A stretch of DNA of 64,000 nucleotides from Weeksellaceae bacterium TAE3-ERU29 (GTDB lineage: Bacteria; Bacteroidota; Bacteroidia; Flavobacteriales; Weeksellaceae): the NCBI GenBank assembly GCA_019218445.1, contig JAHUUM010000004.1, positions 1 through 64,000 of the forward strand, given 5' to 3'. A program made the translations under genes and the position numbers. The number at the start of each line of letters is the position of its first letter. Positions within the stretch are counted from its first letter, which is position 1. Below, piece after piece: positions 17,414 to 17,982 of this stretch. A model generated the notes under the pieces. That model was not told where the DNA came from. It saw nothing but the letters and a program-made list of their open reading frames with translations, and did no database searches.

Positions 17414-17446
17414 TTTTTGCCAACTAAATATTACTTCTTACATTTG
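17414..17446 (+). promoter_or_regulatory. Promoter of leader copy 2
   Basis: TTTTTG (17414-17419) and TACATTTG (17439-17446) match the Bacteroidota -33 and -7 elements with a 19-base spacer, as in leader copy 1. The leader ATG follows 20 bases later. Confidence 0.75.
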
Positions 17447-17465
17447 TGCCACTATCATTTACTAA

Positions 17466-17977
17466 ATGAATAACACACAAATAAATACAAACTTTAACAC
17501 TTTAGATTTGCACAGTTGTAAAAATTGTGTAAACACACACACACACACACACACACACACACACACACACACACACACACACACACACACACACAGAATA
17601 ATCAGGCGTGTGCGTTAGTTTATAGAACATTTTCAAAATATACAAGAGTGCTGAATAAATTTTCAGCCAAAAAAATAAGTCGTAATTCCCTTTTGGGAGT
17701 TACGGCTTTTTTCGTATTTTTTATTTTGGGATTAACTTCTCAAGAGTTTAAAAATAACATTTGTTTTTTCAATCAATCAACCGAGTTAAGTTTTAAAGTA
17801 AACTGTTTCTTATACTCGGTTGTCTGCCTGTTCCTCTTTGTGTGTGTTGGGGGAGCAGGCTCTTTTTTTAAAATAAAAATTAACAATGGAAAATTAAAAG
17901 ATATAACACAGATCATTGCGAGAGATTGCTTCATTCTTCGCAATGACTTGAAAACAAAAGAAACAATTAAAATTTAA
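17466..17977 (+). CDS. Phase-variable leader ORF, copy 2 (currently out of frame, 31 AC repeats)
   Basis: The ATG at 17466 starts the same 25 codons as copy 1 (MNNTQINTNFN ... CVNTH), then the AC tract. With 31 repeats the reading phase is wrong: it ends at a TAG after RIIRRVR, at about 17612. The frame related to copy 1 (QACALVYR, an AFFVFFILGL hydrophobic segment, SFKVNCFLYSVVCLF, FVCVGGAGSFFK) stays open to the TAA at 17975-17977, five bases before the next gene. One repeat fewer (30) would join the two. The long frame alone would need a TTG at 17525, which I regard as an artefact. This looks like the OFF state of a phase-variable leader. Hairpins at 17679, 17778 and 17826 lie inside it. 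Confidence 0.6.
17533..17594 (+). repeat. Simple sequence repeat, (AC)31
   Basis: A pure run of 31 AC units within leader copy 2, twice as long as in copy 1. The difference of 16 units (32 bases) is not a multiple of three, so the two copies are in different reading phases. Confidence 0.97.
17679..17712 (+). terminator. Terminator-like hairpin 1 inside leader copy 2
   Basis: GTCGTAATTCCC pairs with GGGAGTTACGGC (12 positions, two G-T) around TTTT and is followed by six T. This is a strong intrinsic-terminator shape within a transcribed leader. Confidence 0.8.
17778..17822 (+). promoter_or_regulatory. Conserved leader hairpin 2, copy 2
   Basis: CAACCGAGT and ACTCGGTTG form a perfect 9-bp stem around a loop with TTTTAAAGTAAA. 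Relative to copy 1 one pair has changed from G-C to A-T, keeping the structure. Confidence 0.7.
17826..17869 (+). terminator. Terminator-like hairpin 3 inside leader copy 2
   Basis: GCCTGTTCCTC pairs with GGGGAGCAGGC around a TTTGTGTGTGTTG loop, then TC and seven T. The block is almost identical to copy 1 and is the most conserved part of the leader. Confidence 0.75.
17913..17946. repeat. Short REP-like palindrome in leader copy 2
   Basis: TCATTGCGA and TCGCAATGA are perfect inverted arms with GAGATTGCTTC between them; a shorter form of the element at 494-565. Confidence 0.6.
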
Positions 17978-17982
17978 GAATT

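Follow-up and report, generated by a model that had tools for sequence, protein, structure and literature searches.

An AC-repeat leader that looks like a phase-variable transcription attenuator of surface genes in Bacteroidota

A 64,000-nucleotide stretch of the genome of Weeksellaceae bacterium TAE3-ERU29 (GenBank GCA_019218445.1, contig JAHUUM010000004.1, positions 1 to 64,000; hereafter the window) carries two copies of a leader in which a short open reading frame (ORF) runs into a tract of AC repeats ahead of genes for predicted secreted proteins. Analysis of copy 2 (17417–17982, + strand) and its relatives suggests, at a probability of about 0.77, that the leader is a phase-variable transcription attenuator, driven by slippage and dependent on translation. 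From locus to locus the in-phase frame crosses terminator-like hairpins, which points to translation-dependent antitermination and not to simple coupling. A phase-variable family had been proposed in a first-pass annotation made from the sequence of the window alone; sequence comparison supports that proposal well, through in-frame indels, an open frame across the terminator in each lineage that has one detected, and tract lengths that vary between near-identical loci, while its mechanism and scale are revised here. The source genome is a 2.37-Mb draft of 52 contigs, the window lying within contig C34, and repeat numbers and phases are given as assembled.

Structure of the leader

Copy 2 has the layout described in the first-pass annotation, with the promoter, the ATG-initiated leader ORF, the AC tract and the later segments all present. 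A Bacteroidota-type promoter is predicted from the sequence at 17417–17446 (+), with TTG at 17417–17419 and the -7 box TACATTTG at 17439–17446. The leader ORF starts at ATG 17466, its pre-tract part (17466–17532, +) ending in ...NCVN, and the peptide reads MNNTQINTNFNTLDLHSCKNCVN(TH)n. The tract itself is a perfect (AC)31.5 repeat (17533–17595, +) that supplies Thr-His repeat codons; it and the copy 1 tract at 888–918 are the only two long dinucleotide arrays in the window. A conserved box, GCGTGTGCGTTAGTTTATAGAA, follows on the 3' side (17606–17627, +), and a related CGCGCGTNANTATAC box is found in other genera.

As assembled, the copy 2 tract is out of phase. The ATG frame reads ...THTHRIIRRVR* and stops, as had been noted, seven codons past the tract at TAG 17616–17618 (+), and the third phase meets TAA at 17599–17601 (+), 3 nt past the tract. 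The frame that corresponds to the in-phase frame of copy 1 stays open from 17596 to 17977 (+), spans both hairpins and ends at TAA 17975–17977, five bases upstream of the gene ATG at 17983, again as first described; its openness was matched in none of 200 dinucleotide shuffles. The proposal that loss of one unit would restore the phase also holds, the ATG joining the open frame at 30.5 units (one fewer) and likewise at 33.5 (two more). Another start site had been named as a possible refutation. TTG 17525 (TTG TGT AAA CAC) does lie in phase with copy 2's long frame, but it is missing from four sister copies, whereas the leader ATG stands at the same place in all 13 tract-bearing copies of the genome.

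Two intrinsic-terminator-like hairpins lie within the in-phase frame. T1 (17677–17712, +) is a 14-bp hairpin at 17677–17708 followed by a T run, and T2 (17826–17869, +) is a hairpin with a GU-rich loop at 17826–17860, also followed by a T run. Folding energies in copy 2 are -21.8 kcal/mol for the T1 stretch (z -7.1) and -25.1 kcal/mol for the 76-nt T2 stretch (z -5.3). Among the copies the T1 sequence varies, and yet 97.6% of cells are paired, against about 50% when slid; both sides have changed in 18 cells compared with 5.9 in shuffles. Within this genome the T2 region turned up in members of the leader family only. An Rfam covariance-model search gave nothing above the gathering score and two sub-threshold matches only.

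Copy 1 lies on the minus strand, with the leader ATG at 983–985, a tract of 15.5 units (888–918), T1 at 772–806 and T2 at 644–678. Its tract is in phase, giving an ORF of 189 codons whose part past the tract spans 416–887 and stops at 416–418, and the gene behind it starts at ATG 322–324. On this assembly, copy 1 is predicted to be ON and copy 2 OFF.

The sequence itself shows the tract, the frames with their stops, the hairpins, the covariation of T1, the recurrence of the leader and the upkeep of its open frame; from these we infer slippage in vivo, termination at T1 and T2 and ribosome-dependent readthrough. RNA polymerase would start just past the TACATTTG box and transcribe a short leader ORF that has the AC tract, read as Thr-His codons, as its body. 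Slipped-strand mispairing would alter the count of 2-bp units and thereby shift the reading frame past the tract. In two of the three phases the ribosome would halt no more than about 20 nt past the tract, far short of T1 and T2, leaving both hairpins to fold, transcription to terminate and the surface genes OFF. In the third phase the ribosome would trail the polymerase through both hairpins and block their folding, and the surface genes would be transcribed (ON).

The leader family in the genome

The opposite states of copies 1 and 2 had been taken as a sign of phase variation, and the contrast stands, but the family is larger than two. The leader with its tract occurs at 13 places, with 5.5 to 31.5 AC units, and every perfect AC run of at least 10 units in the genome falls inside one of them. 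In 13/13 copies the -7 box (TAYATTTG) stands at positions -89 to -94 relative to the tract. The copies divide into one in phase, seven in one of the OFF phases and five in the other. That one copy is ON per genome by mutual exclusion is not supported, since against 1/13 here a sister species, with its genome in a single contig, has 5/12. Over six groups 10 of 54 copies are ON (p 0.02 against one third, with related members and mostly draft assemblies).

The distance from the post-tract box to the end of T2 (219, 234, 240 or 243 nt) differs by multiples of three alone in 12 of the 13 copies. The remaining copy, C45 (235 nt), nonetheless keeps a frame open through T2 and reads T2 in another frame. 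Under simulated random divergence of 20%, about 6% of copies would remain open.

The genes behind the leaders specify proteins that are predicted to be secreted and whose N termini include MKRVFTTLAIVLAGVTFAQVGINTE and MKKQ.YKLSTMFFLGLGAIAFGQ. Several of the long ones have weak FISUMP (PF09603) similarity (E 1e-6 to 0.04, under the curated cut-off). Behind copy 2 stand two such genes, the first (17983–18597, +) for a 204-aa predicted secreted protein that starts MKRVFTTLAIVLAGVTFAQVGINTE... and has no family match in Pfam or NCBIfam, and the second (18619–20781, +) for a 720-aa predicted secreted protein with weak FISUMP similarity at the C terminus. REP (repetitive extragenic palindromic)-like inverted repeats, GTCATTGCGAG...GCAATGAC and CACCCTGAA.TTGTTTCAGGGTC, lie between T2 and the gene (window 420–590 and 17908–17950) in many copies, and in many the leader frame traverses them. 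One further remnant, the C7 copy (L050), has no tract; it retains promoter and gene, has lost tract, T1 and T2 together, and may be constitutively expressed.

Recurrence in other Bacteroidota

The 22-base string GTGTAA(AC)8 was found in 98 stretches among 84,980 species genomes, and all 80 of the matches listed are from Bacteroidota, with two genera of the window's own family, Riemerella and Bergeyella, and Bacteroides, Phocaeicola, Prevotella, Alistipes, Parabacteroides and Odoribacter among the genera. The same string read backwards matched nothing in the samples of the family and the phylum. Occurrence is patchy: among sampled genomes the leader is present in 8 of 200 from the window's family and in 1 of 148 from the phylum (the window's own genome). 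Several genomes have about 12–14 loci each. Nearly all loci share the leader peptide end ...L....[CRS]VN(TH)n, and in nearly all loci of other genera an ATG is in frame with VN(TH)n. Tract length differs between loci with near-identical flanks, for example 12.5 units in L112 and 11.5 in L119.

Pfam matches among the downstream genes include Mfa-like fimbrillins, Mfa2, OmpA/DUF3575, a BspA-type leucine-rich repeat protein, an HU-HIG protein and contractile injection system proteins. At L102, L140 and L077 (Alistipes, Prevotellaceae) the AC leader directly precedes contractile injection system genes (Pvc16_N, phage-sheath).

The comparative set comprised 93 loci in 36 unrelated downstream sequence clusters. 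A hairpin with a T run was detected in 63 loci and 21 clusters, and 20 of the 21 cluster hairpins exceeded shuffles. The longest frame crosses the terminator in 63/63 loci and 21/21 clusters, where shuffles gave an expectation of 4.7/21. OFF stops precede the hairpin by 27 nt or more, with a median of 83 nt. Three observations weigh against the attenuator. The scan found no hairpin with T run at 30 of the 93 loci, among them those of Bergeyella and most of R. columbina; there, transcription may terminate less efficiently, through Rho or not at all. In 4 of the 21 clusters the terminator is crossed by two frames, which would leave a single OFF phase. At a few Bacteroidales loci (L094, L106, L123) the ON frame runs straight into the gene, an arrangement also compatible with ordinary coding-repeat switching.

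A sister species in the window's genus has a second, shorter class of leader, ATG-[AT]TT-AAA-(CAC ACA)n, with another sequence and terminator and the same logic (L169, L170, L173, L174, L177, L178, L180 and L181; peptides MFKHTHTH.. or MIKHTHTH..). In three of these eight loci the open frame halts about 12 nt before the hairpin without crossing it. The terminator of this class is long, and its arms change together. Second-class leaders mostly precede genes starting MPIKYKVIQKGQPGVAGGG that resemble HU-HIG DNA-binding proteins, possibly phase-variable nucleoid proteins.

Alternative explanations

The leader is conserved in places where the attenuator calls for no particular sequence, a further point against it: the GTGTAAAC and TTGG motifs, the post-tract box and the GU loop of T2 are all conserved as nucleotides. 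The tract flanks are conserved at the nucleotide level across two orders, with information of 0.79, 0.97 and 0.82 at the three codon positions. The T2 loop core TGTGTGTGTT (window 17837–17850 and 654–667) shows no variation among the 13 copies here or at 14 Riemerella loci, even though Riemerella and the window's genus differ in stems and reading frame; T2 loops that carry it include those of L071, L081, L104, L113, L126 and others. It is complementary to the AC tract, which together with its invariance suggests pairing in the RNA.

These features can be brought together with frame-dependent antitermination in a broader reading. The core TTGG...GTGTAAAC(AC)n...CGCGCGTNANTATAC would be a modular Bacteroidota phase-variation cassette, unrelated to pil1 of streptococci, that sits ahead of fimbriae, contractile injection systems, FISUMP-like proteins and HU-HIG nucleoid proteins and adds to antitermination another control in the RNA, the free AC tract pairing to the GU loop in the final terminator. 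We offer this version tentatively, as somewhat more apt to be wrong than right.

The same conservation could mean that tract length works directly on DNA or RNA, through protein binding, promoter strength or pairing of (AC)n with the T2 loop, and not through the reading frame. Consistent with this, a second box, TA[AG]ATTTG, is found 30 nt before the tract in 13/13 copies (window 17503–17510); it lies within the leader ORF, matches the Bacteroidota -7 box perfectly and is possibly an internal promoter. A direct effect of length leaves unexplained the multiple-of-three indels, the retained ATG and the single long frame across the terminator. Moreover, the GU loop was not seen in the Bacteroidales terminators listed, and a stem formed by the two tract flanks (TTGTGTA/TATACAA, GTAAAC/GTTTAC), attractive in Riemerella and Prevotella, was rejected at a median p of 0.45 over the 36 clusters. 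We regard a direct effect as unlikely, at odds of roughly one in ten. Two side observations concern the same DNA: the TTG(G) at the pre-tract site is nearly invariant in other genera, and in several genera the DNA from tract to box continues as alternating purine-pyrimidine sequence (GCGCGT..TATAC) that is prone to Z-DNA and might promote slippage.

The loci without a clear hairpin and T run would also suit polarity without intrinsic terminators, in which untranslated leader RNA in the OFF phases recruits Rho. Both hairpins exceed shuffles in the window's genus, T1 covaries and nearly every cluster hairpin is likewise beyond shuffles, and we consider Rho a slightly poorer prospect than a direct effect of length.

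An open frame of about 100–190 codons with hydrophobic stretches in all copies might instead encode a functional small membrane or leader protein, itself phase-variable, with the downstream genes merely co-transcribed. The ORF has no Pfam match, and downstream divergence at codon positions 1, 2 and 3 is 0.213, 0.214 and 0.252. Such near-equal divergence indicates that the openness of the frame is kept and the peptide is not, and a conserved leader protein was rejected on it. T2 is moreover read in a different frame in C45, and the frame of its loop differs between Riemerella and the window genome. By this comparison the frame is held open as a frame, which a ribosome-occupancy device needs and which is not expected of a functional protein; the protein explanation is accordingly very improbable.

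Least probable of all is translational coupling, in which an ON leader that ends beside the gene start hands its ribosomes to the gene: the 5-nt gap before ATG 17983 in copy 2 fits it but is exceptional, as the open frame ends 27, 27, 35, 35, 43 or 262 nt before the gene in other copies and about 90 nt before it in copy 1, and so generally does not end beside the gene.

Discussion

The attenuator proposed here can be set beside several known systems. In pyrBI attenuation of Escherichia coli the leader ORF crosses an intrinsic terminator, and a closely following ribosome prevents termination; the input there is UTP-dependent pausing, whereas the input of the Bacteroidota leader would be repeat number. 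In the opa genes of Neisseria, slipped-strand mispairing changes the reading frame of the gene (coding-repeat phase variation). In the Bacteroidota loci the repeat belongs instead to a distinct leader ORF, and translation of the surface gene would begin at a start of its own; in copy 2 the leader frame ends at 17977 and the gene starts at 17983, placing the repeat outside the controlled ORF. Nor does the repeat lie between or upstream of promoter elements, as in promoter-spacing switches, since the copy 2 tract starts 86 nt past the -7 box. Invertible promoters of Bacteroidota turn surface structures on and off stochastically by recombinase-mediated DNA inversion; they share the phylum and the stochastic control of the surface with the leaders described here, which would use repeat slippage instead of inversion and would need no recombinase-specific inverted repeats around the promoter.

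In Streptococcus gallolyticus pil1, whether the ribosome reaches a terminator depends on GCAGA repeats within a leader-peptide gene. This mechanism has been proven, and a low-expression profile is seen in isolates whose leader ends 28 nt or more ahead of the terminator (PMC3894217). Like pil1 and pil3, the Bacteroidota leaders have a frame-shifting tandem repeat whose unit is not a multiple of three (here AC) within a leader-peptide gene (here from ATG 17466), and an intrinsic terminator, here predicted from sequence and folding, before a surface operon, here genes for predicted secreted proteins. The out-of-phase stop is likewise far ahead of the hairpin and the in-phase stop at or beyond it, so that the OFF frames end before the terminator and the ON frame runs through. 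There is no sequence relation between the two. The streptococcal loci have 5-bp GCAGA repeats before sortase-assembled pilus genes of a Gram-positive organism, with two loci reported in the strain, whereas the repeat unit of the Bacteroidota leaders is AC, 2 bp long; these leaders share a conserved VN(TH)n end, have two hairpins in the copies of the window genome, occur in two orders and precede genes for FISUMP-like and other secreted proteins. Given the other repeat and the other genes, they would work like pil1 without being members of the pil1 locus family.

Part of this family may have been encountered before. Ornithobacterium hominis has at least 20 FISUMP (FSD) genes, many with a 'putative phase variation mechanism' according to the available passages of one report (PMC13183296), and 450-bp noncoding repeats adjoin such genes according to those of another (PMC10353427). 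The element at these genes may be the same leader as in the window; the passages concerned describe no repeat, leader ORF, terminator or mechanism for the phase variation. A search of full-text literature returned no description of an AC-tract leader family, with most subscription journals and preprints outside its reach and a prior description therefore possible. From its sequence, the AC-tract leader looks like a previously undescribed on/off device.

If the attenuator is real, some Bacteroidota would switch many surface structures through as many as about twelve independent loci, by a simple rule that is the repeat number modulo 3. The bacteria concerned would include animal-associated pathogens (Riemerella, Bergeyella) as well as gut and oral commensals. 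An accurate genome sequence would then be enough to tell whether pili, injection machines and surface antigens are ON or OFF, which would matter for strain comparison, antigen choice and microbiome ecology. The mechanism of pil1, known from one streptococcal group, would have arisen independently in two orders of another phylum.
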